The notes under the pieces are model-generated. The model was not told the DNA's origin and made no database searches. It saw only the letters and a list, made by a program, of their open reading frames with translations. Positions 7,295 through 61,919 of a stretch of DNA of 64,000 nt are shown here, piece by piece. Both the position numbers and the translations under genes were made by a program. Within the stretch, counting starts at the first letter, position 1; every line of letters starts with the position of its first letter. The stretch comes from Fidelibacterota bacterium (GTDB lineage Bacteria; Pseudomonadota; Alphaproteobacteria; Rhodospirillales; Rhodospirillaceae): the NCBI GenBank assembly GCA_947475895.1, contig CANJMF010000002.1, positions 186,001-250,000 of the forward strand, written 5' to 3'.

Positions 7295-7316
7295 GATATA
7301 TCCGCTTGGATATATC
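7295..7316. repeat. Perfect 9-bp hairpin/dyad before the importer operon
   Basis: GATATATCC, four-base loop GCTT, GGATATATC. It lies 16 bases before the ATG of the substrate-binding protein gene. It is not followed by T residues, so it is an operator or a leader-RNA stem rather than a terminator. It does not resemble a Fur, RirA or Irr box that I recognise. Confidence 0.55.
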
Positions 7317-7332
7317 AAAACCGGTATCGCAC

Positions 7333-8391
7333 ATGTTCGTTTCACTGCGCTGCAGACTATCGGGCATCTGCCTATTGATTGCGGCGTGCGCCATCGCATT
7401 GCCGAGTACTGCGTCGGCGCGACAAGTGACCGATTCCGCCGGCCGCACCGTCACGATCCCCGACACGATCACACATGTTTTCGCTGCCGGCCCGCCGGCA
7501 AGCATTCTGCTCTACACGCTGCGACCGGACGTGATGACGTCGTGGACGCGCACCATCCGGCCCGTCGACAAGAAATATCTGGTGCCGAGCGTTCGCGATC
7601 TACCGCAAGCAGGACGTCTGACCGGCCGTGGCGACACCGTCAATCTTGAAGTCCTTGTCGCGAACAAACCCGACCTCATCATCGACTACGGCTCCGTGAC
7701 CGACACGTACCGCTCGCTCGCAGACCGGGTTCAGACGCAGGCCGGCATTCCGTATGTGCTGATCGACGGAAAATTTTCCAACCTACCGACATCGCTCAGG
7801 CTGATGGGTGAAATCCTCGGCGTCAAAGAGCGCGGCGAACTTCTCGCGCGCTACGCCGAGGTGACATTTGCGCGAGTGGATGCGGTGCTCAAGAAGGTTC
7901 CGCCCAGCGCACGCCCGAAAGTTTACCTCGCACGCCGTCCCGACGGTCTTGAAACCGGCGCGCGCGGATCAATCAACACCGAAATCATCGAACGCGTTGG
8001 CGGCATCAATGTCGTCGAAGGCATTACGTCGCGCGGCGATCTGCTGAATGCCTCACCCGAACAGATTCTCGCTTGGGCGCCCGATACCATCGTCACGCTC
8101 GACGATGATTTCGCGGCCGCGGTCGGTAAAAAACCCGAGTGGGCAGCCGTCCCGGCCGTCAAATCAAAGCGCGTCTTGTTGGCGCCGGATGCGCCATTCG
8201 GCTTCGTGGATCATCCGCCGTCCATCAATCGTCTTGCGGGATTGTTATGGTTGGTCCATGCCTTCTATCCTAAGGAAGCCGCCGCCGAATCCGGGCACGA
8301 TCTGAATAGGGATCTTCGTGAGTTCTATAAGATCTTCTACCAATCCGATCTCTCCGACGCCGACATCAAAGAACTCCTTGCGGGAGGCTGA
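7333..8391 (+). CDS. Metal-chelate ABC transporter, substrate-binding protein (FecB/BtuF class)
   Basis: Periplasmic class III binding protein (352 residues) delivering a metal chelate to the permease encoded next. Seen: a signal peptide MFVSLRCRLSGICLLIAACA ending at STASA, then RQVTDSAGRTVTIPDTITHVFAAGPPA (the standard lobe 1 start), NLEVLVANKPDLIIDYGS, the linker-helix region RGELLARYAEVTFARVDAVL, and VVEGITSRGDLLNASPEQILAWAPDTIV in lobe 2. ATG at 7333 was preferred over TTG 7306 because it starts directly with the signal peptide. The ligand may be a siderophore, cobalamin or an oxyanion such as molybdate (MolA belongs to the same class); the sequence does not decide. Confidence 0.88.
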   Translation: MFVSLRCRLSGICLLIAACAIALPSTASARQVTDSAGRTVTIPDTITHVFAAGPPASILLYTLRPDVMTSWTRTIRPVDKKYLVPSVRDLPQAGRLTGRGDTVNLEVLVANKPDLIIDYGSVTDTYRSLADRVQTQAGIPYVLIDGKFSNLPTSLRLMGEILGVKERGELLARYAEVTFARVDAVLKKVPPSARPKVYLARRPDGLETGARGSINTEIIERVGGINVVEGITSRGDLLNASPEQILAWAPDTIVTLDDDFAAAVGKKPEWAAVPAVKSKRVLLAPDAPFGFVDHPPSINRLAGLLWLVHAFYPKEAAAESGHDLNRDLREFYKIFYQSDLSDADIKELLAGG

Positions 8392-9403
8392 TACCGCGCG
8401 CGCGCGTTATGTGACGCTTGCGCTCATAGCGATCTTGCTTCTGTCGGTCGTCATCGCGGCGACGATCGGTCCGTATGCGATCCCACCGCTCGAAATCGCC
8501 AACGCGATCGCGCGTAAAATTGCAGGCACGCCGGGTCCCGAAACAATCGACACCGTTCTCTTTCGCATCCGTCTGCCGCGGATCGCGGCGGCCGCCTTTG
8601 TCGGTGCGGCGCTGGCCTGTGCCGGGGCCACCTATCAAACCATCTTTCGCAATCCGCTTATTTCTCCCGACGTCCTTGGCGTCTCGTCGGGCGCGGGTTT
8701 GGGCGCCGTCGTCGGCATCCTGCTGTCATTTTCGGTTGCCGGTATTCAGCTGGCGGGTTTCGTCGGCGGGTTAGCGGTCGTCGGCATCGTTGTGAGCTTG
8801 GCGTCCGTCTTGCGGAGTCAAAACGAAACGCTGGTGCTCGTCCTCGCGGGCATCGTGATTGGAACGCTGGCCAGCTCCGGCATCGCCTTCATCAAAACCA
8901 TCGCCGATCCGTACGAGCAACTGCCCGCGATTACCTTCTGGCTTCTTGGCAGCCTTTCCGGCGTAAAGGCGGAGGACCTCACGGGTTTGATTGTGCCGGT
9001 AACCATCGGCTTCGCGCCGCTGATTGCGCTGCGCTGGCGCATCGGCGTGTTGTCGCTCGGCGACGACGACGCCCGTTCGCTGGGCGTCAGCGTGGCCCGC
9101 TTGCGGCTCATCGTCATTGTCGCATCGACGCTCATGACCGCCAGCGCCGTCGCTATCTCCGGTGTGATCGGTTGGGTCGGCTTGATGGTGCCGCACATGA
9201 GCCGCTTTCTCGTAGGGCCGCGCTATGATCGTCTGCTTCCTGCCAGCGCTTTATTGGGCGCAGCGTTCGTTGTCATCGTCGATACGCTCGCGCGGTCCAT
9301 CGCAAAAACCGAAATACCGCTCGGCGTTCTGACCGCCTTGACCGGCGCACCTGTTTTCGTATGGCTCCTCGTGCGCGGCAAAAAGCCGTGGTCGGGCGCA
9401 TGA
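8378..9403 (+). CDS. Metal-chelate ABC transporter permease (FecCD family)
   Basis: Inner-membrane permease, about 341 residues with nine to ten hydrophobic segments. Seen: LRIPRI-like FRIRLPRIAAAAFVGAALACAG, the conserved NPLISPDVLGVSSGAGLGAV, LAGIVIGTLASSGIAF, FWLLGSLSG and the coupling segment GVIGWVGLMVPHMSR, all signatures of the BtuC/FecCD family. The start is uncertain: TTG at 8378 overlaps the preceding gene by 14 bases; GTG at 8411 is the alternative, and GTG 8318 would give a long overlap. It is coupled to the binding-protein gene and overlaps the ATPase gene by four bases (ATGA). Confidence 0.92.
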   Translation: MREADTARARYVTLALIAILLLSVVIAATIGPYAIPPLEIANAIARKIAGTPGPETIDTVLFRIRLPRIAAAAFVGAALACAGATYQTIFRNPLISPDVLGVSSGAGLGAVVGILLSFSVAGIQLAGFVGGLAVVGIVVSLASVLRSQNETLVLVLAGIVIGTLASSGIAFIKTIADPYEQLPAITFWLLGSLSGVKAEDLTGLIVPVTIGFAPLIALRWRIGVLSLGDDDARSLGVSVARLRLIVIVASTLMTASAVAISGVIGWVGLMVPHMSRFLVGPRYDRLLPASALLGAAFVVIVDTLARSIAKTEIPLGVLTALTGAPVFVWLLVRGKKPWSGA

Positions 9404-10197
9404 CCGCCGCGGCACTCGACGTCAAAAATCTCGCCGTTGGCTATCGTTCGGGAAGCCACGTGCGCATCGTCGCCCAGGACCTCAACTTGAACTTGGCGCC
9501 CGGCGAGATCTTGTGCCTGCTGGGACCAAACGGTGTCGGCAAGACGACGCTCTTTAAAACACTGCTCGGTTTATTGCCGCGTCTTGGCGGAAGCGTGACG
9601 TTGAACGGTCACGACGCAGCCGCGCTGTCCCGACGCGAGATCGGGCGGCAGATTGCTTACGTGCCCCAGGCGCAAGCCTTGGAGTTCGCATACACCGCAT
9701 TCGATATGGTGTTGATGGGACGCTCCGCACACCTGGGGCCGTTTCAATCACCCAAGGCCATGGACCGTGATCGCGCTTACGCCGCCCTTGAGTTGCTTGG
9801 TATCGTGGATTTGGCCAATCAACCTTGCACCGAGATGTCGGGTGGTCAGCGTCAGCTCGTCCTCATCGCACGCGCGCTAGCGCAAGACGCCCGGATCATT
9901 GTTTTGGACGAGCCCACGGCCAGCCTCGACACGGGCAATCGGGTCCGCGTGCTCGATCAGGTGAAATCACTCGCGGTAAAGGGCCTGGGCATTATCATGT
10001 CCACGCATGATCCCGCGCACGCACTCGAGATCGCCCATAAGGTTTCGATCTTGGCCGAAAGCCGGCAACTGGCTTACGGGCCAACGCAGGAGGTGATGAC
10101 CTCCGCCATTCTGTCAGAGGCCTATGGCCTGGCCGTTTGGCTCGAACGCACGGCCGGCGGACGCCCCGTCATCATGGCCGACAATCATCGGCCTTAG
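9400..10197 (+). CDS. Metal-chelate ABC transporter ATP-binding protein (FepC/BtuD class)
   Basis: 265-residue cytoplasmic ATPase that powers the FecCD permease. Seen: Walker A LLGPNGVGKTTLFKTLLG, Q-loop IAYVPQAQALEFAYTAFDMVLMGR with the family-typical length, ABC signature MSGGQRQLVLIARALAQ, Walker B IIVLDEPTASLD, and the switch His in IIMSTHDPAHAL. The ATG at 9400 overlaps the permease stop as ATGA; the upstream in-frame ATG 9361 adds a non-conserved tail. With the two upstream genes it forms a full importer. The receptor gene that should serve the outer membrane step, directly downstream, is damaged. Confidence 0.95.
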   Translation: MTAAALDVKNLAVGYRSGSHVRIVAQDLNLNLAPGEILCLLGPNGVGKTTLFKTLLGLLPRLGGSVTLNGHDAAALSRREIGRQIAYVPQAQALEFAYTAFDMVLMGRSAHLGPFQSPKAMDRDRAYAALELLGIVDLANQPCTEMSGGQRQLVLIARALAQDARIIVLDEPTASLDTGNRVRVLDQVKSLAVKGLGIIMSTHDPAHALEIAHKVSILAESRQLAYGPTQEVMTSAILSEAYGLAVWLERTAGGRPVIMADNHRP

Positions 10198-10231
10198 CGG
10201 GCAGGGCGGCGGTCCTCTCGCACGGACTTGA

Positions 10232-12160
10232 TTGCATACCACCTCATTCTCCCTTGCCCCGACATATCTAGACGCCATCAACTTAGCGCCTGGCGTGAAC
10301 GGCCAGTTCGATTCCAATGGCCGCCGCAACGAGAGCGACATCTTCGTCCGTGGCTTTGGCCGCTGGCAGGTTCCTTTGCTGGTAGACGGCGTGCGCATTT
10401 ACTTGCCTGCCGACAACCGCCTCGACTTCAGCCGCTTCCTCACCGGCGACGTGGCCGAAATTCAAATTCAAAAAGGGTATGCGTCGGTGCTCGCGGGTCC
10501 GGGTGCGATGGGCGGGTTGATCAACCTCGTCAGCATCAAGCCCACGCAGGCATTCGAGGGCGAGGCGACCGAGGGCTTTGTTCTCACCGACAGCGAAGCG
10601 GTCTCCGGATCGCAAGGCTACGCACGCATCGGCTCGCGCCACGACAGCTACTACGTTCAAGGCAGCGTGAGTTATGTGGACCGCAATTCCTGGAATCTGC
10701 CGGGCGGCTACATTCCGACTGCGACGTCGCTTCAGCCTGTGGGCCGGCGCACCAACTCCGACAGCAGCGATTTGCGCTTCAACTTAAAAGCCGGCTTCAC
10801 ACCCAACGACACCGACGAATATACCGTCAACTTCACGCGCAATCAGGGTTCAAAAGGCGGTCTTTTGAACGTCTACAATAACCCGCAATCGCCGGCGAAC
10901 TACTTCTGGCGGTGGCCCCAGTGGGACAGTCAGAGCGTTTCAATCCTGACCTATGCGCAGATCGGTGAGGCTTATCTAAAAACCAAGCTGTTCTACAATA
11001 CGTTCGCTAACGTTCTGAAAGCCTACGACGACATCACCTACACCACTCAGTCGACGAACGGACGCTTCACCAGCCCTTATAGCGACGACGCCTTCGGCGT
11101 CAGCGCCGAAAGCGGGATCGATTTCGAAAATCATGCCTTGAAGGGCGCGTTCCACTTTCGCACCGATGGTCACGACGAATACAACGACAACCGCCCGACA
11201 GCGGCGCCCAACCTGCACACCATCGAACCTGTTCAACATCAAGAGCAAGATGCCTGGTCCGTAGCGCTGGAAGACACGTATCATGTCACGTCGGCAATCA
11301 ATGTTGTCGCGGGTATCAGCTTCGACGATTACACGATCACGGCCTCGCAAGACTACAACGCCACCTTGGGCCTCTATTCGTATCCGAAGGGCGGCGCGAA
11401 CGCGTTCAACGCGCAGGGCGCTTTCATCTAGAGCTACAACGAAACCGGACAGTTTCACGTCAGCATTTCCGATCGCGCACGCTTCCCGAACTTCTTTGAA
11501 CTTTACAGCACGCGTTTTGGAACAGCCGTCCCCAATCCCGCCCTGGGGCCGGAACGCGCCATCAACTACGAAATCGGCGCCAAGGAAACGTTTGGACGCA
11601 CGCACCTTGAAGGCGCGTTGTTCTACAGCGATGTCAGAAGTCTGATTCAATCCATTCAAATCACCGGCGGCGCCAGCCCGCAGGTTCAAAACCAAAACGT
11701 CGGCGACGGGGAATTCTATGGTTTTGAAATCTCGTTCGACACCGCCGTTTCGGCGCGCTTCGACGTCGGCGGTAATTACACTTATACCAACCGTCACATT
11801 AACTACGCGATTTCAGCAGCCATCGCGCCGCTGCAGCCCGCCTTCCGTCTCACCGGCGTGCCAAAGAACAAGGCGTTCTTCTACGCGGCCTGGCGTCCTG
11901 TTTCCCAACTGACGTTGACGCCGAGCCTGGAAATCGCCAGCGACCGTTGGAGCGACAAAACAACCACGCCCGCGCAAGCGTTCCCTTACACAATCGTGGG
12001 CGCCTACACGCTCGTGAATTTCTCGGCCGAATACCGCCTCGTGGAAAACGTCAGAATCACGGCCGGTGCGAAGAATTTGTTTGATAGCAACTACGAACTC
12101 TCATGGGGCATGCCGCAACAGGGTCGCACCTATTACTTTAAAGGGCGCGTGACGTTCTAA
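10232..12160 (+). pseudogene. TonB-dependent receptor remnant (5' deleted, internal amber codon)
   Basis: Remains of an outer-membrane receptor that presumably served the adjacent ABC importer. Seen: a plug domain that starts in mid-domain (LDAINLAPGVNGQFDSNGRR, FVRGFGRWQVPLLVDGVRIY, GPGAMGGLINLV), a 22-strand type barrel, a late segment RFPNFFELYSTRFGTAVPNPALGPER and a proper C-terminal strand ending in Phe. Two lesions: no signal peptide, TonB box or plug start exists between the ATPase stop and this frame (a TGA sits at 10229), and TAG at 11429-11431 interrupts the same frame between FNAQGAFI and SYNETGQF. Both halves (1200 and 729 bases) are collinear. A single base change, for example CAG or TAC to TAG, explains the amber codon. 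Confidence 0.85.
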
Positions 12161-12296: not shown

Positions 12297-15200
12297 GTGC
12301 CGGACGATAAAAAAAACATAGCCGAGACGCTAGATCCAACAGTGATTGCCGCACTGACAGCGCTCCCGTCTATTGAGCGCCCCAGTTATGTCCTCTATCC
12401 GTATAAATGGGGCAGTGGGCTTCGCGGCACGAGCGGCGGAGTCATTACGTGGAGCGCGAGCGCTCAAATTCCGACCGACAATCCCTATACCGATAGCGCT
12501 GCGGTCATGCCGCCGTCATACCTCGATACGCTTCGTGCCGCCTTCGCGCGTTGGAACCAAGTCGGAAACTTCACCTTCGTCGAGACGACCGATGGCGTGA
12601 ACGCCGACATTCACATCGTATTTGATGAATTGGAAAGCCGGAGCTCAAGCACTCTTGGCCTGGCCCAGACCTTCTACGGCATCACCAGCGGAGCGGCACG
12701 CGAGGCATTCATCAGTTTCGACATTGGACGGCGCTATCGCACCAACGACGGCGTCATTCACAGTGCCGGCAGCGTTTCTAGCACATCGACGATTTACAAT
12801 TTTTACGCCATCGCTTTGCACGAAATTGGTCATGCGCTTGGTCTCGACCATGAAAACGATTTCGCCACGTTGATGAATTCTTACTACAGCCCGAGCGTCG
12901 CCGACCTCACCAGCGACGAGATCAACGGCGTTCGTGCGCTGTACGGCTCGCCTGGCTCGATCCCTACGTCCGACGATTATACGTCCGATAACACGACGGC
13001 CGGCCGCATTACCATTGGCGGGAACGCCCCGGGAACTCTGGAGTACGGCGGCGATGTCGACTGGTTTTCTGTAACTCTCACGGCAGGCACCAATTACCAA
13101 TTTGGTATCGTCGGCGGAACGTTGCTGGATCCCTATCTCATCGTTCGAAACAGCAGTGGCACAATCGTCGCAAGCGACGACGATGCCGGTGTCGGCCTCA
13201 ACGCGCAACTGACCTACACGCCGACCGCGTCCGGCACCTTTTACCTGGAAGCGCGCGGCGCCACGATTTCAGGCGCGGGCACTTATACTGCGTCTGTCGC
13301 CGTGACGACGACCCCACCCGGTGGCGGGGCAGGGGCGACGATAGACGACTACGCGGGCAGCACCGCGACAACAGGAACGCTTGCCGTTGGCGGCTCGATT
13401 TCAGGAAATCTGGAATCGGGGGGAGACAGCGACTGGTTCCGCGTCACGCTCACTGCGGGCACTAACTATCACTTCGGCATTACCGGCGGCACGCTAACCG
13501 ATCCATATCTCAATGTTCGTAACGGCAACGGTACAATTGTCGCAAGCGACGATGATTCCGGCGCCGGCCTGAATTCTGATCTCACTTACACGCCGACGAC
13601 CTCGGGTATCTTTTATCTTGATGTGCGCGGCGCCACCACTGTCGGAACCGGCACATATGCCGCGTTAGTTACGGTCGCGATATCGAGCGGTGTAAGCGAC
13701 GACTACGCGAGTAATTCCTCGACGACCGGAATGGTATCCATTGGCGGTTCGTACACCGGAAATATTGAGCATTCCGGCGACCACGACTGGTTTCGTATCA
13801 CGGCAACGGCAGGCACCATTTATCAGGTCAACGTTAATGGCAGCTCGTTAACCGATCCATACGTGATGATCCTCAATGTCGATGGCAATTTGGTTGCCAG
13901 CGACGACGATTCCGGGGCCGGTCTGAATGCGCAGGCGTTATTCAAGGCCCGCCTAAACGGCACCTACTACGTCGATGTAAGTGGCTCTCAGTCTTTCAAC
14001 ATCGGCGCGTATACAGGTTCTGTCACGGTCGCGGTGGCTGCCGGCGCGTTGCCATCCGATGATTATGGAGACACGACGCTGGCGAACGGCACACTGGCCA
14101 TAGGCGGGTCGGTGACGGCCACTCTCAACGCCAATTACGATGAAGATTGGTTCGCGGTATCATTGGTGGCCGGCGGCGTTTATCGTTTCAACGTCGATGG
14201 CATCACGCTTGTTGATCCATTTCTCATTGTCTACGACGCAAACGGCGGCATAATCACAAGCGACGACGACTCTGGCGTCGGGCTCAACTCACAACTGACT
14301 TACACAGCCCCAAAGACAGCGACTTATTATCTTAGTGTGCTGGGTTCCAGCGGCACAGGATCGTATCGAGCCAGCGCTACGGCACTCTCGCTTCCGACTC
14401 CCGCCGATGATTTTTCCGGATCCGCCGCGACGTCGGGCACGGTTACGGTCGGGGGATCGCGCTCGGGCAACATCGAAACCGGAAGTGACAGCGACTGGTT
14501 CCGCATCACGCTCACAGCCGGCACCGCGTATCTTTTCGATTTAGCGGGAGGCACGCTCGCCGACCCCTATCTTTATGTACGTGATGTCTCGGGCACCGCG
14601 CTGGTATCGGATAACGATTCCGGACCGGGACTGAATTCCCAGATTTCGTTCACGCCGTCGACCTCAGGCACCTACTATCTTGATGTGCGCGGTGCTGCGG
14701 CAGCGGCAATGGGAACATACACACTTTCCGCCGCGCTCGCGCCCGATGACTATGGTGCGACAATAACAACGGCGGCCGCAATCGCCATGAATAATGCGCG
14801 CACCGGCGCGATCGAAAACGGGGGTGATGCTGATTGGTTTTCTGTCACCTTTAGTGCCGGCGTTTTATACGAGATCGACGTTACGGCGAGCGCCACCAAT
14901 ACCGGCACGTTATCCAATCCGCGCATGACGTTGTTGGGTACCACGCCATCCGGAGGCACAGTCGCATTGGCGTCCGACGAGGATGGAGGCATTGGGAATA
15001 ACGCACAGCTGATATACACCGCAACGACTGGCGGCACGCACTACATTGCCGTTGATAGCGTTGATCCTAAAGCGACCGGCACCTATACCGCCAGGGTGAT
15101 GCAGATCGCCGACGATTATGTGGCCAGTGTCAGTACAACCGGCTCCTTGGTCGTTAACGGAACTGCAACCGGTCGCATAGACGCACTGTCCGATACCGAT

Positions 15201-16040
15201 TGGTTCCGAATCACACTGAACGGCAATGGCCGCTACCGCTTTTTCGTCAGCGGCTCCGACAGCAATGGCGGTACGCTCTTCGATACAACTGTCAGTGTTT
15301 ACGATGGAACCGGAAATTTGGTCGTCAGCGCCGACAACGGCGGCTTCGGTTCTGACGGACTGGTGCTGTATACGCCCAGCTTGAGCGGCACCTACTACAT
15401 TGCGGCGTCGGGCTTAAGCACCGGCACTTATACGGTCGGCGCCCTTCAACAAACGGTGGATGATTACAGCGCCGGCACATCGACCACCGGATCAATCGCA
15501 ATCGGCGGGACGATCCGAGGCATGATGGAAGCCACCGGGGACCACGATTGGTTTCGCGTCACCCTGACTGCGGGCTCCGCATATCTATTCAACGTGCTGG
15601 GAACAGCGCTGGGCGCCGGATTACGCGAAGCCGATTCCTATCTTTGGCTGCGTGACGCAAACGGGGCGGAGGCCGCAAAAGCCGAGGCTCACGGGGCAGG
15701 GATATCGGCCCAACTCACTTACACCGCACAAACGAGCGGAACGTACTATCTCGATGTGCAAGCCTACGCCGTCGGCGGGGGGAGTTATTTGGTCAACGTC
15801 ACTACCAACAGCGCCGCGCTCACGGCGCGCGATGTGACTGTTTCCCAACATACCTCCGAAATGGACGCCGTCACAGCGCCACCCGAATTCGACCTCAGCT
15901 TGCTCGGCGCCACACCCGCCTATCAAAATATCTTGGAGGCGGCGGATGGATACGACGATGACGCCCTGACGCTCTTGCGTGCGAACCAGCGCATGCCGAC
16001 GCCTCTCTTTTCGGCGGGCGCCCACAGGGTCTACGCTTGA
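12297..16040 (+). CDS. Matrixin-like metalloprotease with eight PPC repeats
   Basis: 1247-residue probable extracellular protein. Seen: an N-terminal zinc metallopeptidase domain of the M10 matrixin type with HEIGHALGLDH (His175, Glu176, His179, His185) and the Met-turn in TLMNSYYSPS; RGTSGGVITWSASAQIP and RAAFARWNQVGNFTFVE are typical propeptide-free matrixin features. From about residue 225 to 1190 there are eight consecutive bacterial pre-peptidase C-terminal (PPC) domains, each opening with DDY/DDF, then GDxDWFxVTLxAG, SDDDSGxGLN and SGTYYLDVRG. The start is GTG with GGAAAGGGA upstream. No N-terminal signal peptide is seen and no RTX nonapeptides, so secretion (type I with an atypical C-terminal signal?) is unresolved. 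Third codon positions look less GC-biased than in eno. Confidence 0.88.
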   Translation: MPDDKKNIAETLDPTVIAALTALPSIERPSYVLYPYKWGSGLRGTSGGVITWSASAQIPTDNPYTDSAAVMPPSYLDTLRAAFARWNQVGNFTFVETTDGVNADIHIVFDELESRSSSTLGLAQTFYGITSGAAREAFISFDIGRRYRTNDGVIHSAGSVSSTSTIYNFYAIALHEIGHALGLDHENDFATLMNSYYSPSVADLTSDEINGVRALYGSPGSIPTSDDYTSDNTTAGRITIGGNAPGTLEYGGDVDWFSVTLTAGTNYQFGIVGGTLLDPYLIVRNSSGTIVASDDDAGVGLNAQLTYTPTASGTFYLEARGATISGAGTYTASVAVTTTPPGGGAGATIDDYAGSTATTGTLAVGGSISGNLESGGDSDWFRVTLTAGTNYHFGITGGTLTDPYLNVRNGNGTIVASDDDSGAGLNSDLTYTPTTSGIFYLDVRGATTVGTGTYAALVTVAISSGVSDDYASNSSTTGMVSIGGSYTGNIEHSGDHDWFRITATAGTIYQVNVNGSSLTDPYVMILNVDGNLVASDDDSGAGLNAQALFKARLNGTYYVDVSGSQSFNIGAYTGSVTVAVAAGALPSDDYGDTTLANGTLAIGGSVTATLNANYDEDWFAVSLVAGGVYRFNVDGITLVDPFLIVYDANGGIITSDDDSGVGLNSQLTYTAPKTATYYLSVLGSSGTGSYRASATALSLPTPADDFSGSAATSGTVTVGGSRSGNIETGSDSDWFRITLTAGTAYLFDLAGGTLADPYLYVRDVSGTALVSDNDSGPGLNSQISFTPSTSGTYYLDVRGAAAAAMGTYTLSAALAPDDYGATITTAAAIAMNNARTGAIENGGDADWFSVTFSAGVLYEIDVTASATNTGTLSNPRMTLLGTTPSGGTVALASDEDGGIGNNAQLIYTATTGGTHYIAVDSVDPKATGTYTARVMQIADDYVASVSTTGSLVVNGTATGRIDALSDTDWFRITLNGNGRYRFFVSGSDSNGGTLFDTTVSVYDGTGNLVVSADNGGFGSDGLVLYTPSLSGTYYIAASGLSTGTYTVGALQQTVDDYSAGTSTTGSIAIGGTIRGMMEATGDHDWFRVTLTAGSAYLFNVLGTALGAGLREADSYLWLRDANGAEAAKAEAHGAGISAQLTYTAQTSGTYYLDVQAYAVGGGSYLVNVTTNSAALTARDVTVSQHTSEMDAVTAPPEFDLSLLGATPAYQNILEAADGYDDDALTLLRANQRMPTPLFSAGAHRVYA

Positions 16041-17383: not shown

Positions 17384-19303
17384 TTAAAAATCGACGGCAA
17401 GGCTTGTGGAAAACCGTCGCGGGTTGCGCGTAAAGAACGCGCTGCCCGAATCTGCGTCGAGGGTGTAGCGGTTCGTGAGATTCGTCACCTGCGCACGCAC
17501 ACTCGCGGGCGCGCTCGCGAGCGCGAACATATAACGCACACCGAAATTGACCTCGTTCCAGGCGGAAACACGCGACTGATTGTCGCTGCGGGCGAATTTG
17601 CCGGAGCTATGCGTGAACGTTGTGTCGAACGCCAACCCGTCCCAAGACGGTGGCCGATACGTCAAAGTTACGAAGCTGAACAAGGGTCGCGGCCCGGGCG
17701 GAATGCGCCCCACTACGCCGCGCGCCACGGGCTCACCGGCAAGGCGCGGCTGCAACATGGTCATGCCGCCAACCACATTCAAACGCGTGAACACATCTCC
17801 CGAAAGCGACAACTCGACGCCGCGATGGCGCACCTGACCCAGGGCGCCGTAGACGTTGGCGGCGTTGATATTGAAGTATGGTTTTTCCACCTGAAAAACG
17901 CCTGCAACAAATTTTAGCGTGGGCGTGATGGTGTATCTAAATCCAGCATCTATCTGCTGCGTGATCGCGGGCGGCATGGCTTCACCGCGATTGACCGTGG
18001 ATGGCGGCGCGGTACCGGATTCCTCCAGTCCACGGGTATAGCCGGCATACAGCGCAAGTGATTGCGACAGAAAGACGCTTGCTGTCGCGTTATAAAGAAT
18101 CGGACTTGCCGTCGACTTGGCCAACGGAAACGTCGGTTGCTGTAATTCACGATGGTAGAACGTTTTCTGAACGCCGAACCCCACTTCGCCGATATTTTTC
18201 CAGAACAAGTTATAGGCAACGCCCGCTGTGCCTTGCCGCGCATGATCGTAACTCAAGGGCCCAAACGAAAACGCCGGCTTCGGCAGGGTTGAGGGCTCCC
18301 CAACAAACGCCGTGCCGAAGTCGAGCACATCGCTTCCGCCAAATCTGCGATTCACATCGCGTCCGCGCAGCGATACGACAAACAGATGCCGGCGCGGGCC
18401 ATCGCTGACCAAGCGCGAGAGCCGGACTTCGCCGGATGTTGAGCCGGAGCCGCTCGGCGGTTGCGCGATAATGAAATGGCGACCGCTGCCGTTCGCCTGC
18501 ACATCGGCAAGGAAATCAGCGAAGTGCTCGGTGATGGCACCCTCCGAGCGGAAGAGGCCCACACGCAATGTCCAGTCGCTCAACGCGACGCTCCCAAGCA
18601 TGCCGAAGTTTGAATCTACTTCGCGTGGATGCGTCCACTGTTGGCCCCAAAAGGAATTGTTGGGCAGGCGCGGCGGCAAAAAGGCCCCTGCGGTGAAAAC
18701 AACCGGCTGCTGTTTGCAGCAATCGGTAGACATGCGGCTCCAGAAGCCGACGACCTCCATATCATCCGCCGGATGCCATCGCGCCGTGAACGCCGCATTC
18801 CAAGTGGTATCTACGACTCCTACGTCGGCATCAAAGTGCGTGAAATCGCCGCCGAAGCCGATGCTCAAACGCTCCGCAACAATGGGGACTTGGGTATCCA
18901 CCTCGATGGCCTTGGTCGTGTTCGGACCATAGCCAAGATAAACGCTCGTCAACCGAGCCTCGCCCGGAAGGCGGAGGTGGAAATCCGCAATGCCGGTGGG
19001 CGCGGGGAAGGGATAGGACTGCGCGCTAATCCCGACATGAACTGTGTTGCCTGCGACCACGCGGTTATTCGGCTGCGACTGCTGGTCGAAATAGAGTCCT
19101 TCGATGCGGACGTTGCCCGCCTGCGCCGGACTAAAACCGCGCGCGTTATAAAGACCGTAAAGGCCAACGCTTTCGTTGCCGACTGTTGTGCCAAAGGCGT
19201 CGTCGGCAGCCGCCGCGGCATTATCGCTGGCGCGTTGTGCGAAGGCCGGCGGCACGGCGAGCAGCACAAAAGCGAGCGACGCATAGCCAAGTCTTGACCC
19301 CAT
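17384..19303 (-). CDS. TonB-dependent receptor, cluster A member of the DAFG/ARGF family
   Basis: Outer-membrane receptor of 639 residues. Seen: a signal peptide (MGSRLGYASLAFVLLAVPPAFA), a short plug-like N-terminus with DDAFGTTVGNESVGLYG and NARGFSPAQAGNVRIEGLYFD (the counterpart of the RGF..xxxxIDG plug motif), a long barrel with GYTRGLEESGTAP, GVFQVEKPYFNINAANVYG and RHRGVELSLSGD, and a final strand ending LAVDF. No classical TonB box is obvious. ATG at 19303 was chosen because GGGGAGGCGGAGG precedes it; the in-frame GTG 19324 adds a hydrophilic extension. Last gene of a leftward run blaI-M56-cytochrome c-receptor. The same family recurs three times at 55.4-61.3 kb. Ligand unknown. Confidence 0.88.
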   Translation of the reverse strand: MGSRLGYASLAFVLLAVPPAFAQRASDNAAAAADDAFGTTVGNESVGLYGLYNARGFSPAQAGNVRIEGLYFDQQSQPNNRVVAGNTVHVGISAQSYPFPAPTGIADFHLRLPGEARLTSVYLGYGPNTTKAIEVDTQVPIVAERLSIGFGGDFTHFDADVGVVDTTWNAAFTARWHPADDMEVVGFWSRMSTDCCKQQPVVFTAGAFLPPRLPNNSFWGQQWTHPREVDSNFGMLGSVALSDWTLRVGLFRSEGAITEHFADFLADVQANGSGRHFIIAQPPSGSGSTSGEVRLSRLVSDGPRRHLFVVSLRGRDVNRRFGGSDVLDFGTAFVGEPSTLPKPAFSFGPLSYDHARQGTAGVAYNLFWKNIGEVGFGVQKTFYHRELQQPTFPLAKSTASPILYNATASVFLSQSLALYAGYTRGLEESGTAPPSTVNRGEAMPPAITQQIDAGFRYTITPTLKFVAGVFQVEKPYFNINAANVYGALGQVRHRGVELSLSGDVFTRLNVVGGMTMLQPRLAGEPVARGVVGRIPPGPRPLFSFVTLTYRPPSWDGLAFDTTFTHSSGKFARSDNQSRVSAWNEVNFGVRYMFALASAPASVRAQVTNLTNRYTLDADSGSAFFTRNPRRFSTSLAVDF

Positions 19304-19327
19304 TGCCTCCGCCTCCCCACGCACAGA

Positions 19328-20317
19328 TTAGGGCATTCGTGATGCGGCGTAAGCTGCAATGTCGACCATATCCGTCTCGGTTAACTTTGCGACGACGGGC
19401 ACCATAAGCGCACTCCATGCGCCCGCGCGCGCGCCCTGCTGGATGTCGTAAAGCTGGCGCACAATATACGTGGGCGAACGGCCTGCGAGGAGCGGTACGG
19501 GTCCGATCCCTTGCAGATCTGCGCCGTGACACGTGGCGCAAGGCGTGGTCGTGCCTTTCCGTCCCGTCGTCACCAGCACTTCGCCGCGCTTGATGCTTCC
19601 CGGGGGCACGTAAGCAACAAAACCCGATCGTGAATCGCGCAACTGCGTGCGTTCGAAGTCCTCCGGGACTTCAATGATTCGTGTCCCCAGAGCCTCTGTC
19701 GTATCGGTGTCGGCTTTTACGGACATGAGATCTTCGGTTCTTGTCGTCGGCACGCGCGCGCTTTCAACAACACGAAACCAAGGCTTCGGTTTAAGCGCCG
19801 CGAAATATTCGGCGGCGATCCGCGTATCGTCTTCGTTCATGGGCCGGCTGACGAACGTCATTGTGCCGGTGCCGCTATATTTTTCCATGGCGCTTTTCCG
19901 CACGCCGCTTTTGAATTCCGCGATCTGCTGCGTGATGTACGCAACGGAAAGTCCGGCAAGGCCCGGGGCTTGAAGAATGGTGGTGCCCAACCCGTTCGGC
20001 AGATGACAATGTGCGCAACCCTCAACATCAGATCTGCGGCCGCGCAAAATCACATCGGGCGCGGGCGGATGATCGTCCGGATGCCAGTCCGGAACGTTGA
20101 ACGCGCTTCGTGATCGCTCGAGCGTGACGGCGAGAGTCGAATTCGGAACCCGTTTAAGTTCGGCTTCGTTGACCGGAGGCGGCATAGGCGCGTTCGCCGG
20201 CCGCGCGTATATCGGATAAGCCCATCGCAGCGGCGCGTCGGCGGCCTTTGCCTGCGGAAGGGTCAGACTGACCGCAGACAAGCCAAGGGCGGCAGCGAAC
20301 GCAAAGATCGTACGCAT
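19328..20317 (-). CDS. Periplasmic dihaem cytochrome c
   Basis: 329-residue exported c-type cytochrome. Seen: signal peptide ending at PQAKA; two haem-binding motifs, CAHCH (Cys101-His105) and CATCH (Cys260-His264), each followed by the class I pattern LxGxxxxYIxxQLxxFxxG (APGLAGLSVAYITQQIAEFKSG and LLAGRSPTYIVRQLYDIQQG). Met residues in TMTFVSRPM and WSALMVPV are candidate axial ligands. This two-domain layout resembles the cytochromes that accept electrons from periplasmic dehydrogenases. It is 25 bases ahead of the receptor gene and divergent from a molybdenum hydroxylase without a FAD subunit, so it is a good candidate electron acceptor of that enzyme (inference). Confidence 0.92.
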   Translation of the reverse strand: MRTIFAFAAALGLSAVSLTLPQAKAADAPLRWAYPIYARPANAPMPPPVNEAELKRVPNSTLAVTLERSRSAFNVPDWHPDDHPPAPDVILRGRRSDVEGCAHCHLPNGLGTTILQAPGLAGLSVAYITQQIAEFKSGVRKSAMEKYSGTGTMTFVSRPMNEDDTRIAAEYFAALKPKPWFRVVESARVPTTRTEDLMSVKADTDTTEALGTRIIEVPEDFERTQLRDSRSGFVAYVPPGSIKRGEVLVTTGRKGTTTPCATCHGADLQGIGPVPLLAGRSPTYIVRQLYDIQQGARAGAWSALMVPVVAKLTETDMVDIAAYAASRMP

Positions 20318-20346
20318 TGGGGTCTCTCCGTCGTTGATAAGCGGTT

Positions 20347-21919
20347 TTAGCCGAAGGCCCCCGCACGCTTGAGCGCCAGCAGGCCCTGCATGTTTAGTCC
20401 GTGAAATCGATGATTCTTGACGGCCTTCAAAAATTCCGGCGTCAGCCCATGAAGCTGCGCGGTCACATAATCGTTGGGATGAATTTGCGTCACGCCCACC
20501 GACAAAAGCGCGCGAATAAGTTCCGGCGATACGCCCGTCGCCTTGTAAACGACCAATTGGCGGGCAGGGAGTTCCTGCGGCTGCAGACCGGCCTTTTGAA
20601 ACGCGGCGATATCAGACGGGTCGAGATTGACGGTGCGCAGCGCCAAGATTTCATTGGTGGAAACCGTCGGCCATATGGCTTGCGTTTCGCGCACGTATTC
20701 AGGCGTCACGCCGCTCGAATTCAGAGCCGCAATTTCCGCGGTCCGGATGTGGGGTAATAAACCGCGCACATTTTGCACATAGTCCTGCCCGATCCCGAGG
20801 GCCTCCAGTGAAAGCGTTTCAAGTTCGCGCACGGGCGCGCGCGTTTGAGGCCAAGGTGATTTCAGGCAAAGCCAATTCAGGCATCGCCGGCGGCGCGAGA
20901 TCTTGCCCGGAGACGAGAACGAGTTGGATATTCTCTGGCGCTGGAATACCAGCCCGGGTCGAAATCGACACGCTTGGCGCCATTGCGTACCCAACGAAAC
21001 ACAACAGTCCAATGAGCGCGCCGATGACCGAAACATGATTCGTGTCGGCCGTACCTTCAACCAAGCGCAACACGCGCTGCCGCAAGACACCGCCATTGGC
21101 TGCGACCGCGAAGCGAGGCGAGGGGCGCAATGTTTCGACCGCGGTCAGTGCCCGTGCATATCCAATCGCGTCGCCGCATTGTGCGACAGCCAAATCATCG
21201 CAGCAATTTTCGCGCTCGGTGCGCATGCGGGCGCTAACCCACCACACAGCCGGGTGATAGAAAAGCAACGTTTCCGCCGCGATCTGGAAGAGATTGGCGA
21301 CCGCATCCCTACGCCGGATGTGCGCAAGCTCGTGAAGCACCAAGGCTTCGATCTGATACAGCGGCAATCGCGCGATCACCGCGACCGGCAACAAGATCGC
21401 AGGGCGGAACCACCCCACCACCATGGGCACCGCTGCCGACGCCGACTGCAAAAAAGCGATGGACTGCGTGATCCCCGCACGGCGCGCGAGGGCTTCGCAC
21501 CGTTGCGCAAGCTCATGCTTCAGTTCGCTGGTGGTCGCGTGGCGCAGGGATTGCGCGACGTACCATCCGCCAACGGCGCGAATGCTCAACGCCGCAACAC
21601 CCGCGATCCAAACCGCAACAACCGCATTCATCCATACGAACGCCGCCGGCGCATCGACAACATGACGCCATATCCCGGTGTCCAGACCCAGGCCGTGCGC
21701 GCCCGACCTATGAATGGTCGCGAACGTGATAACCGGCGCGGCCACCATGAAAGCCAGCGTGACGAACGCCGCGGTGTAGCGGTCGCTAGCGGTTCGGCAG
21801 AGCGGGAGAAGGGCGATCGACAAAAAAGCAAGGACGACGCCTTGCCATAAAAAATGAACCAACGTCCAACCCAGCGCCTGAACAACCTCGAACGGCAGCA
21901 AGGAGGACAGGGCGCTCAT
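20347..21919 (-). pseudogene. M56 (BlaR1/MecR1-like) sensor metallopeptidase, frameshifted
   Basis: Membrane zinc protease that normally inactivates the cognate BlaI-type repressor. Seen in the first frame (21919 to 20819): several transmembrane helices, the zinc motif HELAH (His196, Glu197, His200), ERENCCDDLAV and ARALTAVE. This frame stops at 20819-20821 after SNARARART. In the next frame the protein continues with RELETLSLEALGIGQDY and a series of helical repeats (LNSSGVTPEYVRETQ, YKATGVSPELIRALLS, AQLHGLTPEFLKAVK) that are the usual C-terminal part of this M56 subgroup. The two frames differ by one base and meet at the GC run 20833-20843. Either a one-base insertion, a consensus error or a programmed shift; an insertion is the simplest reading. 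Confidence 0.82.
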
Positions 21920-22302
21920 TTGGTCCTCTTCTCATGATCGTCGAGGATGCGCCGGATTTCTTCGATTTCCTCGGGCGACGCCCGCTTGCCGGCGAGGGCG
22001 TGCATGACGAGTTGTGTGGCCGAGCCGCTAAAAGCGCGTTCCATGAGATCGCGAACAAGCTGACTCTTGGTTTGGCTCGGCGGTTGCCCGGCTTCGTAAA
22101 TATGCGCCCGCTGCTCCAAGTGTCGGCGCAACGACCCTTTCGCCGCCATGATCTGCATGATCTTCAGTACGCCGGTGTAGCCGGTAGGCTTGGTCTTGCT
22201 CAGGACTTCATGGACTTCGCGCACCGTCGAGGGGCCACGCGTCCACAGAATATCGAGAATCGAGAGTTCGGTTTGCGTCGGCGTGGAGCGTTTGGGCGCC
22301 AT
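21916..22302 (-). CDS. BlaI/MecI/CopY-family repressor
   Basis: 128-residue winged-helix repressor. Seen: TQTELSILDILWTRGPSTVREVHEVL, TGYTGVLKIMQIMAAKGSLRR with the recognition helix, and the C-terminal dimerisation helices ending in EEIEEIRRILDDHEKR. It overlaps the M56 gene by four bases (ATGA), the standard pairing in which the protease relieves repression. It heads the leftward run M56-cytochrome c-receptor. Two near-identical palindromes at 22315-22353 lie 13 bases before its start codon and are the obvious operators. Because the iorAB genes diverge from the same gap, the repressor may control both directions (inference). Confidence 0.93.
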   Translation of the reverse strand: MAPKRSTPTQTELSILDILWTRGPSTVREVHEVLSKTKPTGYTGVLKIMQIMAAKGSLRRHLEQRAHIYEAGQPPSQTKSQLVRDLMERAFSGSATQLVMHALAGKRASPEEIEEIRRILDDHEKRTK

Positions 22303-22314
22303 GAATCGACCCTA

Positions 22315-22353
22315 CTACGAACATATTCGTAGGATCAACGAAATTTTTCGTAG
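22315..22353. promoter_or_regulatory. Two tandem BlaI-type operator palindromes
   Basis: CTACGAA-CATA-TTCGTAG (22315-22332) and ACGAA-ATTT-TTCGTAG (22338-22353). The shared core is ACGAA-4-TTCGTAG; the dyad centres are 21 bp apart, two helical turns, as expected for cooperative binding of two repressor dimers. The pair lies directly before blaI and about 100 bases before iorA. Confidence 0.75.
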
Positions 22354-22453
22354 ATAGAACGTGGGACCGAGGCCCGACCCGACTCACGCATCGCTGCTAG
22401 TCGAGGCGGCGCGCAGCTGATATGTTCGCCGCTGCACCAGGCAGGAGGACACA

Positions 22454-22912
22454 ATGTCGGTCACCCTAAAAATCAACGGCCAAACTCACACCGTCGACGC
22501 AGACGAAGATACCCCTTTGTTGTGGGTCTTGCGCGACCATCTCGGCATGACCGGCACCAAGTACGGTTGCGGCATCGCCCAATGCGGCGCATGCACCGTG
22601 CATCTTGACGGCGCCGCCGCGCGCTCGTGTCAGATTCCCGTCTCCGCCCTAGCCGGCGCAGAGGTGACGACCATCGAGGGTCTGTCGCAGAACTCCGACC
22701 ATCCTTTGCAAAAAGTCTGGGTCGAAAACAACGTGCCGCAATGCGGCTACTGCCAGACCGGCATGATCATGGCGGCGTCCGCGCTGCTCAAGCAGGTCCC
22801 GCATCCCACCGACGCCGAGATCGATATGGCCGTCGATAACATCTGTCGCTGTGGAACTTACCCGCGCGTGCGCGCGGCGATCCACCAAGCGGCCGAAAAA
22901 CTGTCGTCGTAG
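22454..22912 (+). CDS. iorA: Molybdenum hydroxylase 2Fe-2S small subunit (IorA/CoxS type)
   Basis: 152-residue iron-sulfur subunit of a xanthine-oxidase-family enzyme. Seen: plant ferredoxin-type cluster ligands in [13 protein letters not shown] (Cys39, 44, 47) with Cys59, and the second cluster on a four-helix fold with QCGYC (Cys97, 100) and CRC (Cys131, 133). The [17 protein letters not shown] context is closest to the isoquinoline 1-oxidoreductase alpha subunit group, a symbol used here by similarity only. No signal peptide; it would be exported with the Tat-tagged large subunit. AGGAGGACACA precedes the ATG. No FAD subunit gene is nearby, which fits the two-subunit class that passes electrons to a cytochrome. 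Confidence 0.93.
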
Positions 22913-22926
22913 GGGAGGAGCACATC

Positions 22927-25191
22927 ATGGGTAAACTTGAATCCGTTTCACGCCGCTCGTTCCTGATCTCCACAACTGTTGTCGGCGGTGGGTTCGCGAT
23001 CGGCTTACAGTGGACGCCGAGCCAAGCCGCCGGCGAAACAGCGAAAGACGAGCCCTGGGCGAAAGCCGCCGCCGGCTCTGAATTCACGCCGTGGATTTCC
23101 ATCGCGCCCGACAGCACCGTCACCGTGCGCTGCGCCATGCCGGAAATCGGCAACGGCGTGTTCACGCAATCTGCCATGACGGTCGCCGAGGAACTGCACG
23201 TCGATTGGTCGAAAATCAAAGTCGAATACGCGCCGCCGCTGCGTAACTTCCTGGAAAAGAGCGTGTACACCGAAGCCGGCGGCATGATGGGCTATTTCAG
23301 CGGCCGCTCCACCACCGCCGAGCGTATCCAATTGGGCCTCCAACTCGGAGCCGGTGCGCGTGAACGTTTGAAAGCTGCAGCCGCCGCCCAATGGAAAGTG
23401 CCGGTCGCGGAAATCACCACCGCCAACAGCATCCTGACTCACACCGCGTCCGGTCGGACGCTGAAATACGGCGAAGTGGCTGCAAAAGCCGCCACCGTCA
23501 AACTCGACAAAGAGCCCACGCCAAAGCCCCGCAGCGAATGGACGCTACTCGGCAAAGCAACGCCTTCAAAGCTGCAGAACCCCGCTGTCGTCAACGGCAC
23601 GGCGGTCTATGGCATGGATATCCGTCTGCCAGGCATGGTGTACGCCGCTTTGCGTCAGGCACCCGCCCAAGGCGGCTCGATTAAAAGTCTTGATGCTTCT
23701 ATCGCCCGCAAGATGCCGGGCGTTCTCGCGGTCGTGACCGTCGATCCGAAAGAAAGCGCCGGCTTCAGCGATCCGAAGCTGCAAGCGCCGTTCGGGCTCG
23801 AGATGTGCACAGCGCAAAACGCCGTCGCGGTTATCGCCACCCATTATTGGCAGGCCCGCAAAGCCCTCGATGCCGTGCGCATCGAGTGGGACGACGGCGC
23901 CGGCGCTCAGTGGAAAACCACCGAGACCATGAACGAAGCCGCACGCGCGCTGCTCGATTCAAAAGACCTCAAAGTCGAGAAGACCGAAGGCGATATCTCG
24001 TCTATCGACAAGCAGGACAAGATCATCGAAGGCTTCTATCACACGCCTTACTGCGATCAGGCGCCCATGGAGCCCTTGAACGGTACCGCGCTCGTGACGC
24101 CCGATAGCGTCGAAGTGTGGCATCCGTCGCAGCATTCGCAGCAAGCCTTCATGGTTGCCGCCCATGAAACCGGTTTGTCGCCCGAGAAGGTCGTCTTCCA
24201 TCAGACTTACGTCGGCGGCGGCTTCGGCCGGCGCGTGTTTGGCGACGACGTTCGCATGGTGGTGGCCATCGCCCGCAAGTATCCCGGCAAGCCGGTGCAC
24301 GTGATCTGGTCGCGTGAAGAGTCCATGCGTCAGGGACGTTACCGCGCGATTGTCGCGACAAATTTGCGCACCGGCCTCGATAAAACCGGGTATCCGGTGG
24401 CGGTCCACGGGAAATATGCCATCGGGTCTGTCGGCGGCACGGCTGGTTTCCACGACACGCCTTATGCCTTCAATAAGAACTTCAAAGTCGAAGGCACCAA
24501 GGTTCCGTTCAATATTCTCTCGGGTGCCTATCGCGGCCCAGGGTACAACTCGCATGCCTTCATCACCGAAACCTTTGTAGATGAATGCGCTCATGCTGCC
24601 GGCATCGATCCGCTCACCTATCGCCTGAAGTTGCTGGAAGGTTATAGCGACCTGGGCTGGGTCATGTGCTTGAAGGAAGCGGCTAGCAAAGCCGGTTGGG
24701 GCAAATCGTTACCTAAAGGCATGGGCATGGGGATTGCGATCTCCAACTGGGCCGGCAACGGCAAGCCGCAAGCCGGCACGACAGTTGCGACAGTCGCGAC
24801 GGTCGAAGTCAGCAAGGCCGGCAAGCTCAAGATCCATCAACTCGATGTTGCCTTCGACACCGGCGGCTTTTTGAACCGCGATGCGGTCGTCACCGAGATG
24901 GTGGGCGGCAGCATCTTCGGCTTGAATATGGCGCTCAATGAAAACCTCACGGTCCGCAACGGCCGCGTGGTGGAAGGCAACTACGACGAATACCCCATGC
25001 TCCGCATGGGTGATACTCCCACCAAGATCAACATTCACTTCGGTGGACTGTCAGGCCACGAACGTTTCTGCGAACCCGGCGAGCCGCCGGCGGGCGTGGC
25101 GGGTCCGGCCGTGGGCAATGCGATCTTCGCTGCCACCGGCAAACGCATTCGCTCGATGCCGTTCCGCTTGCACGACATCAGCTGGACCTAA
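22927..25191 (+). CDS. iorB: Molybdenum hydroxylase large subunit (IorB type), Tat-exported
   Basis: 754-residue molybdopterin-binding subunit. Seen: a twin-arginine signal at the N-terminus (SRRSFLISTTVVGGGFAIGL), two Ald_Xan_dh_C-like halves, LLGKATPSKLQNPAVVNGTA, the Moco-binding GGGFGRR at 430-436, VIWSREESMRQGRYR, GAYRGPGYNSHAF, and the C-terminal GEPPA segment holding the expected catalytic Glu (Glu719). Named by similarity to isoquinoline 1-oxidoreductase beta; natural substrates of this group range over N-heterocycles and aldehydes, and cannot be fixed here. The gene follows iorA by 14 bases with GGGGAGGAG as ribosome-binding site and ends in a terminator. Divergent from the blaI-receptor run. 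Confidence 0.93.
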   Translation: MGKLESVSRRSFLISTTVVGGGFAIGLQWTPSQAAGETAKDEPWAKAAAGSEFTPWISIAPDSTVTVRCAMPEIGNGVFTQSAMTVAEELHVDWSKIKVEYAPPLRNFLEKSVYTEAGGMMGYFSGRSTTAERIQLGLQLGAGARERLKAAAAAQWKVPVAEITTANSILTHTASGRTLKYGEVAAKAATVKLDKEPTPKPRSEWTLLGKATPSKLQNPAVVNGTAVYGMDIRLPGMVYAALRQAPAQGGSIKSLDASIARKMPGVLAVVTVDPKESAGFSDPKLQAPFGLEMCTAQNAVAVIATHYWQARKALDAVRIEWDDGAGAQWKTTETMNEAARALLDSKDLKVEKTEGDISSIDKQDKIIEGFYHTPYCDQAPMEPLNGTALVTPDSVEVWHPSQHSQQAFMVAAHETGLSPEKVVFHQTYVGGGFGRRVFGDDVRMVVAIARKYPGKPVHVIWSREESMRQGRYRAIVATNLRTGLDKTGYPVAVHGKYAIGSVGGTAGFHDTPYAFNKNFKVEGTKVPFNILSGAYRGPGYNSHAFITETFVDECAHAAGIDPLTYRLKLLEGYSDLGWVMCLKEAASKAGWGKSLPKGMGMGIAISNWAGNGKPQAGTTVATVATVEVSKAGKLKIHQLDVAFDTGGFLNRDAVVTEMVGGSIFGLNMALNENLTVRNGRVVEGNYDEYPMLRMGDTPTKINIHFGGLSGHERFCEPGEPPAGVAGPAVGNAIFAATGKRIRSMPFRLHDISWT

Positions 25192-57377: not shown

Positions 57378-57386
57378 GTGAGGGGC

Positions 57387-59333: not shown

Positions 59334-59359
59334 AGATTTCTCTGGGGGGTAGGCTAAAC

Positions 59360-61463: not shown

Positions 61464-61919
61464 ATGGCATTTCAACTGACGATCAATGGACGCGCGCGCG
61501 AGATCGACGTCGAAGGCGACATGCCGCTGCTGTGGGTCTTGCGTGACGAGATCGGACTCACCGGTACCAAGTTCGGATGCGGCATCGGCGCTTGCGGCGC
61601 TTGCACCGTTCACATCAACGGCGAGGCCATACGCAGTTGTCAGATGCCGGTCTCGGGCGTTGCCGGCCCCATCACCACCATCGAAGGCCTCGGCGCAGGG
61701 CAGGCCGATGAGCTTCATCCCGTCCAAAAAGCGTGGGTCGCGGCGCAGGTTCCCCAGTGCGGCTACTGCCAGTCGGGCCTGATCATGGCGGTCGCATCGC
61801 TGCTGGCGAAGAACCCTTCGCCCACCGACGACGATCTGAAAACCACCGTCACCAATATTTGCCGCTGCGGCACCCACGACCGCGTGCGCGCGGCCGTTGC
61901 GGCTTTGGCCAAAGCATAA
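61464..61919 (+). CDS. iorA: Molybdenum hydroxylase 2Fe-2S small subunit (IorA type), second copy
   Basis: 151-residue paralogue of the protein at 22454. Seen: FGCGIGACGACTVH (Cys39, 44, 47), Cys59, QCGYC (Cys99, 102) and CRC (Cys133, 135), the full set of ligands for two 2Fe-2S clusters. The rest closely follows the same family, including the WVLRDEIGLTGTKFGCG segment. GGAGGGGACCC precedes the ATG. It is followed by the large subunit gene after ten bases. As in cluster A, no FAD subunit gene is present, so a cytochrome is the likely electron acceptor (inference). Confidence 0.93.
   Translation: MAFQLTINGRAREIDVEGDMPLLWVLRDEIGLTGTKFGCGIGACGACTVHINGEAIRSCQMPVSGVAGPITTIEGLGAGQADELHPVQKAWVAAQVPQCGYCQSGLIMAVASLLAKNPSPTDDDLKTTVTNICRCGTHDRVRAAVAALAKA

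Follow-up and report, generated by a model that had tools for sequence, protein, structure and literature searches.

Pairs of a BlaI-type repressor and an M56 metallopeptidase are known mainly from β-lactam resistance, and systems of the BlaI/BlaR1 type are characterized by adjacent repressor and protease genes and by palindromic operators. The first of these statements derives partly from PMC7593790, the consulted part of which describes BlaI/BlaR1 and MecI/MecR1 as controlling β-lactamase and PBP2a, and also describes cell-surface signalling, where a TonB-dependent transporter works with an anti-sigma factor and an ECF sigma factor. In the open-access literature, no description of a TonB-dependent receptor with BlaI/M56 was found among the matches listed, which is weak evidence of absence: the parts consulted of PMC10470040, PMC7593790, PMC5294843 and PMC6807378 mention BlaI and TonB-dependent receptors apart, or only one of the two. 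In the part seen of a further candidate source, PMC12864828, the search term had matched only the name Blair, and this paper was discarded as a source on BlaI. Within that open-access scope and among those matches, a BlaI/M56 circuit that probably targets a receptor gene therefore has no described precedent.

The locus described here lies in a window of 64,000 nucleotides (the whole stretch of DNA that was analysed), which is part of a 3.3 Mb genome in 36 contigs. In cluster A, four genes follow one another on the minus strand: blaI (21916–22302), the first gene of the putative operon, an M56 gene (20347–21919), a gene for a c-type cytochrome with two CxxCH motifs (19328–20317) and a gene for a 646-aa TonB-dependent receptor (17384–19324). 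The first two overlap by 4 bp and the following gaps are of about 29 and 3 bp. On the plus strand, across a divergent gap of 151 bp from blaI, lie iorA (22454–22912), for a [2Fe-2S] subunit, and iorB (22927–25191), for a molybdenum subunit. Open reading frames and homology searches place all of these genes where the original prediction had put them; the unit that it drew from them, a receptor, cytochrome and BlaI/M56 pair built around the molybdenum hydroxylase, is nevertheless drawn wrongly. On the basis of the observed gene order, homology, recurrence of the receptor with BlaI/M56 and conserved operator-like sites, the best explanation, and one that we consider probable, is that cluster A comprises two neighbouring units: an operon for a TonB-dependent receptor, which proteolytic derepression through BlaI/M56 would induce, and a separate iorAB.

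Recurrence of the receptor beside BlaI/M56 was examined in relatives of the window genome. M56 matches were found in 6 of 59 genomes of the family (five above the cut-off) and in 14 of the 19 genomes of the genus. These 19 genomes contain 21 M56 genes, 9 of which have a receptor gene no more than 5 kb away, where 0.67 would be expected; seven of the nine were counted by script and two were read by eye. Among the first 15 M56 genes, taken from a listing that reached 12 genomes of the genus, 7 lay within this distance (0.47 expected), and the search of all 19 genomes added six M56 genes, two of them beside a receptor. The counts are not independent, since all the genomes come from a single genus and several of the loci are orthologues of one another; the linked loci represent about three genomic settings, namely between eno and ftsB, next to an aldo/keto reductase gene, and a third common to G297, G291 and G282. 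A single-sequence contig scan returned one locus, on the same contig as G035:C10, which was not counted as independent. For the other 12 M56 genes no receptor was seen within 5 kb; two of these are in G310, a genome with no receptor match, and the one at G301:C206, perhaps with others, lies at a contig end.

The linked loci take two forms. In type 1 (the window and G299) the order is blaI, M56, a third gene and the receptor, the third gene being the cytochrome in the window and a gene here called X in G299. In type 2 (G035, G056, G297, G291, G282, G309 and G313) one or two receptors are followed by blaI and then M56. The pair also occurs with no adjacent receptor, as type 1 in G019 and as type 2 in G299:C70 and G312:C27. 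In G310 two solute-binding-protein-like genes are followed by a type-1 operator, blaI and the remnant of an M56 gene; these two genes resemble the pair that precedes a type-1-clade receptor in G043 (Pfam on one of them); from a reading of N-terminal sequences, the two places appear to correspond. G043 itself has this close type-1-clade receptor, yet no M56 match in its genome.

The cluster-A receptor has no Pfam match (E ≤ 0.001) and scores below the cut-off of NCBIfam TIGR01783. Its identity as a TonB-dependent receptor comes from homology to solved receptors: a profile built from the four receptors of the window matched the siderophore receptors FemA (E = 8e-34) and BauA (E = 1.7e-19) over the C-terminal part. 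Unlike FemA and BauA, it is a protein of about 650 aa that Pfam does not match, and the siderophore-receptor homology would be a mere lead to its cargo. In a tree of 54 chosen receptors, a subset of the genus's 144 and of those of the family, all 13 M56-linked receptors fall in one 18-member clade (support 100/99) and none is among the other 36. The five members of this clade without an adjacent M56 gene are those at G000:C7, G043:C1, G035:C8, G047:C21 and G313:C108. A plasmid search found no record that covers 80% of the cluster; the only plasmid place that covers at least 80% of the receptor, in Niveispirillum at 35.6% identity, is without BlaI, M56 or iorAB matches (E ≤ 1e-4) over 17.8 kb. 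At two places (L022 10323–12413 and L099 4238–6286) a gene resembling a bifunctional class II aldolase/short-chain dehydrogenase occurs near a receptor from the BlaI/M56 clade (Pfam on the L022 copy only), and an aldo/keto reductase gene is present in three type-2 clusters (L140, L100 and L235). Such neighbours possibly hint at the receptor's cargo.

The repressor is of the BlaI/MecI type (PF03965, 85.1 bits against a cut-off of 22.6, E = 6e-24). It is 67–74% identical to the BlaI proteins of G019, G310, G299 and G301, and those of G035 and G056 are only 19–20% identical to it. The protease belongs to the M56 (BlaR1-type) metallopeptidases (PF05569, 102.9 bits against a cut-off of 31, E = 2.5e-29) and carries the HExxH motif. 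In the window its gene is split over two frames, with the metallopeptidase domain in the N-terminal frame (20819–21919) and the C-terminal part, which the C-terminal ends of the G019 and G299 proteins match in alignment, in a second (20347–21096). This copy may thus be non-functional, or the assembly may be at fault. The G299 gene is a single frame of 714 aa, and that of G019 a single 558-aa frame preceded, close to the N-terminus, by an in-frame stop. Midway frame changes were also noted in other genes of these draft genomes, the genes noted being the window M56, the cluster-B IorB, a receptor copy (C2:302296–304063) and the G056 M56 (at 20347–21919, 61930–62100, L026 7252–9064 and L100 5332–7202), where assembly error and decay are not distinguishable.

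The locus resembles BlaI/BlaR1 and MecI/MecR1 in joining a BlaI-type repressor and an M56 metalloprotease in adjacent genes with palindromic sites, the latter recognized here by sequence. It differs from them in three respects. Pfam found no penicillin-binding sensor domain in the two M56 pieces of the window or in four M56 relatives, a beta-lactam signal thus being unlikely; the score of the window M56 with the blaR1 NCBIfam model, 84.8 bits, is also below that model's cut-off of 400. The M56 proteins end instead in a DUF2807 domain (in the two type-2 proteins scanned) or in a repeat-like region with no Pfam match above the cut-off (type 1). Lastly, the gene behind the pair is that of a TonB-dependent receptor. 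Contact between M56 and the receptor through a TonB_C domain was also considered and rejected, as none was found in the four M56 relatives.

Each type of locus has its own palindrome. The type-1 operator is a double palindrome, CTACGAA-N4-TTCGTAG twice at a spacing of 21 bp, and lies 12 bp before the window's blaI: site 1 (22315–22332) matches perfectly and site 2 (22336–22353) has one mismatch. These are the sole sites with 0–1 mismatch in the 3.3 Mb genome; at up to three mismatches the pattern is not enriched there (71 against 123 for the control). Searched as a 38-bp double pattern, it occurs in 5 of the 19 genus genomes (G000, G299, G301, G019 and G310), at a single place in each and always directly before blaI, and the reversed control gave 0. 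Since type-1 operators precede blaI only, it is through the operon structure that the type-1 receptor would be controlled.

The type-2 palindrome, TGCTAC-N5-GTAGCA, stands before 9 of 9 type-2 blaI genes examined, one of them with one mismatch, and it also precedes receptor genes. Among the 62 receptors with upstream sequence, a site with at most one mismatch was found before 7 of 10 M56-linked receptors and before 0 of 52 others (Fisher 2.4e-7, relatedness ignored), three of the ten type-2-linked receptors thus lacking a site of their own; with two mismatches it precedes the receptors of G048 and G043:C1. A scan of about 1.9 Mb of partly redundant sequence, centred on these genes rather than genome-wide, gave 16 distinct sites when one mismatch was allowed: 13 are perfect and 3 have one mismatch, and nine stand before blaI and seven before a linked receptor. 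In redundant counts there were 34 perfect and 8 one-mismatch sites; the corresponding numbers were 0 and 10 with the pattern reversed, and 0/0 and 0/2 for two permuted palindromes. Perfect type-2 sites thus stand out, and one-mismatch sites do not do so by number. A palindromic operator before the repressor gene is therefore present by sequence, and its binding by BlaI is predicted. Together with the recurrence in relatives, these sites support the part of the original prediction in which BlaI/M56 would serve as the receptor's regulatory pair.

By analogy with the known systems, BlaI would bind these sites, M56 would cleave BlaI and the operon would thereby be induced. In unit 1, the blaI–M56–cytochrome–receptor operon, a BlaI dimer on the double palindromic operator would keep the genes off; M56, a metalloprotease in the membrane whose C-terminal region is sensor-like, would detect a signal, probably not a beta-lactam, and would remove BlaI, upon which the TonB-dependent receptor would be made. 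Unit 2, iorAB, would be a molybdenum hydroxylase of periplasmic type outside the recurring module. Control of a receptor gene through regulated proteolysis would be a feature in common with cell-surface signalling. Here, by contrast, a repressor and an M56 protease would take the place of the sigma and anti-sigma factors, and no N-terminal signalling domain was recognized in the receptor (Pfam, E ≤ 0.001), a weak difference as Pfam recognizes no part of this protein. In this way, operon structure and operator-like sites connect a BlaI/M56 pair that has no recognizable beta-lactam sensor with a defined clade of TonB-dependent receptors. The receptor becomes a concrete, testable target gene of BlaI/M56, and its cargo a route to the signal; the adjoining molybdenum enzyme is not to be used for guessing that cargo.

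The pair might instead be a general sensor of envelope stress or antibiotics, the receptor being one of several stress genes. The 12 of 21 M56 genes with no receptor seen within 5 kb would fit this, as would G019, G299:C70 and G312:C27, which have the pair and its operator and no adjacent receptor. We nevertheless regard it as unlikely, given that the linked receptors form one clade and that, in the sequence centred on these genes, type-2 sites occur only before blaI and linked receptors. A narrower version of the derepression model is dedicated surface signalling, whereby the C-terminal region of M56 would read cargo transport or receptor occupancy, remove BlaI and so induce the receptor. On this reading, two M56 sensor regions (the repeat-like one and DUF2807) with two operators would serve neighbouring receptor subclades, so that the wiring would have been made twice or the sensor swapped; we regard it as a speculative and rather improbable refinement.

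The derepression model of two neighbouring units leaves the relation of iorAB to the operator to be weighed. The units might be separate in origin while the operator in the 151-bp gap here also puts iorAB under BlaI. The start of iorA is only about 100 bp from the end of the operator sites, and the sequence preceding iorA is not clearly conserved with that of G019, G047 and G309, so that its promoter may be a replacement. Against this local capture, the operator stays beside blaI where ftsB or unrelated genes flank its other side, and no sigma-70-like promoter was recognized in the blaI–iorA gap on either strand. It seems to us doubtful.

No FAD subunit appears in the list of open reading frames beside the cluster-A iorAB, as had been claimed, and IorB (which has PF02738, PF20256 and PF01315) begins with SRRSFL, which we take to be Tat-like. 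The pair thus has the features of an IorAB-type enzyme, that is, a [2Fe-2S] and a molybdenum subunit, no adjacent FAD subunit and a Tat-like N-terminus; as regards its substrate, the NCBIfam equivalog models listed all scored below their cut-offs. The best solved match of IorB is 8gy3_C, the large subunit of an aldehyde dehydrogenase. It is in the molybdenum and [2Fe-2S] subunits and the missing adjacent FAD subunit that the enzyme resembles the molybdenum aldehyde dehydrogenases and IorAB-type enzymes, and unlike them it appears here as a neighbour, and not a member, of a receptor module. As a separate observation, two tandem iorB genes lie behind one iorA in G052 (L102 7451–12311).

Comparison of the site between eno and ftsB separates the two units. 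In G019 and G047, of the same genus, the order is eno–iorA–iorB–ftsB–pdhA (eno, ftsB and pdhA recognized by reading), with nothing between eno and iorA, no receptor block and, in G047, one extra open reading frame between iorB and ftsB. By tblastn, G299 has eno–receptor–X–M56–blaI–ftsB–pdhA without iorAB, and G301 has M56–blaI–ftsB–pdhA without iorAB, cut by the contig end. Since iorAB alone or the block alone is found at this site in relatives, both use it independently, and the window has both. Adjacency elsewhere was assessed with 144 receptor and 68 IorB matches in the 19 genus genomes, expectations assuming uniform placement. Within 5 kb of a receptor were 2 of 68 IorB genes (2.43 expected), both in the window genome; within 10 kb there were 5 (4.1 expected) and within 20 kb 7 (7.24 expected). 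On its own, the window genome has seven IorB genes, two of them no more than 5 kb from a receptor where about 0.29 would be expected; the other genomes show no such excess. The original prediction had proposed comparing the co-occurrence of receptor and iorAB genes with chance, and had named a lack of enrichment as telling against it; across the genus, co-occurrence is at chance level.

The cytochrome is an operon member here and not a conserved partner. Its relatives amount to 14 matches in 10 of the 59 family genomes, and at the cut-offs used the other 13 have no contig in common with the receptor or IorB matches listed. Seven of these 13 loci were read and have mixed neighbours, with a polA-like gene in two, by eye. 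A role of the cytochrome as electron acceptor of IorAB was considered and rejected, the relatives showing no IorB link at those cut-offs.

It had further been claimed that the combination is found twice in the window. In cluster B, on the plus strand, three receptors (55452–57377, 57378–59333 and 59357–61300) are indeed followed by iorA-like (61464–61919) and iorB-like (61930–64000, continuing past the window end) genes, as seen from open reading frames and Pfam; this IorB changes frame between its N-terminus (from 61930) and the remainder (from 62063). The three receptors, however, are each only 38% identical to that of cluster A and fall in a separate part of the tree. Cluster B has no M56 match (the genome's sole Pfam M56 match is in cluster A) and no cytochrome match (the genome's two are in cluster A and on contig C19), and a tblastn search with the cluster-A genes over the stretch from the second receptor onward (L032) found only receptors and iorAB, with no blaI following. 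Receptor and iorAB thus occur twice and the full combination once. No receptor is present on the stretches read around the close relatives of the cluster-B iorAB (G019 and G308), and recO and parC, sought for the surroundings of cluster B, were found only in the window genome's own loci.

That receptor, cytochrome and IorAB form one uptake and oxidation route for a bulky N-heterocyclic or aldehyde compound, with BlaI/M56 as its sensor, is therefore very unlikely: the adjoining of all parts in cluster A and of receptors and iorAB again in cluster B, the local excess in the window genome, the operator pair in the gap common to blaI and iorA and the aldehyde dehydrogenase match of IorB would favour it, but iorAB and the block each occur without the other at the same site, adjacency across the genus is at chance, neither close relative of the cluster-B iorAB has a receptor on the stretch read, and the cytochrome relatives are located elsewhere. 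The same separability, chance adjacency and scattered cytochromes speak against a cluster built around the hydroxylase. Elsewhere in the window, the region 7306–12160 was noted by eye to hold a run resembling an ABC uptake system (binding protein, permease and ATPase) and, after it, a TonB-dependent-receptor-like gene split over two open reading frames (10232–11431 and 11618–12160). Also by eye, the region 12297–16040 encodes a protein of 1247 aa, in which a metalloprotease-like motif near the N-terminus, HEIGHALGLDH, is accompanied by numerous repeats of about 120 aa that resemble one another.
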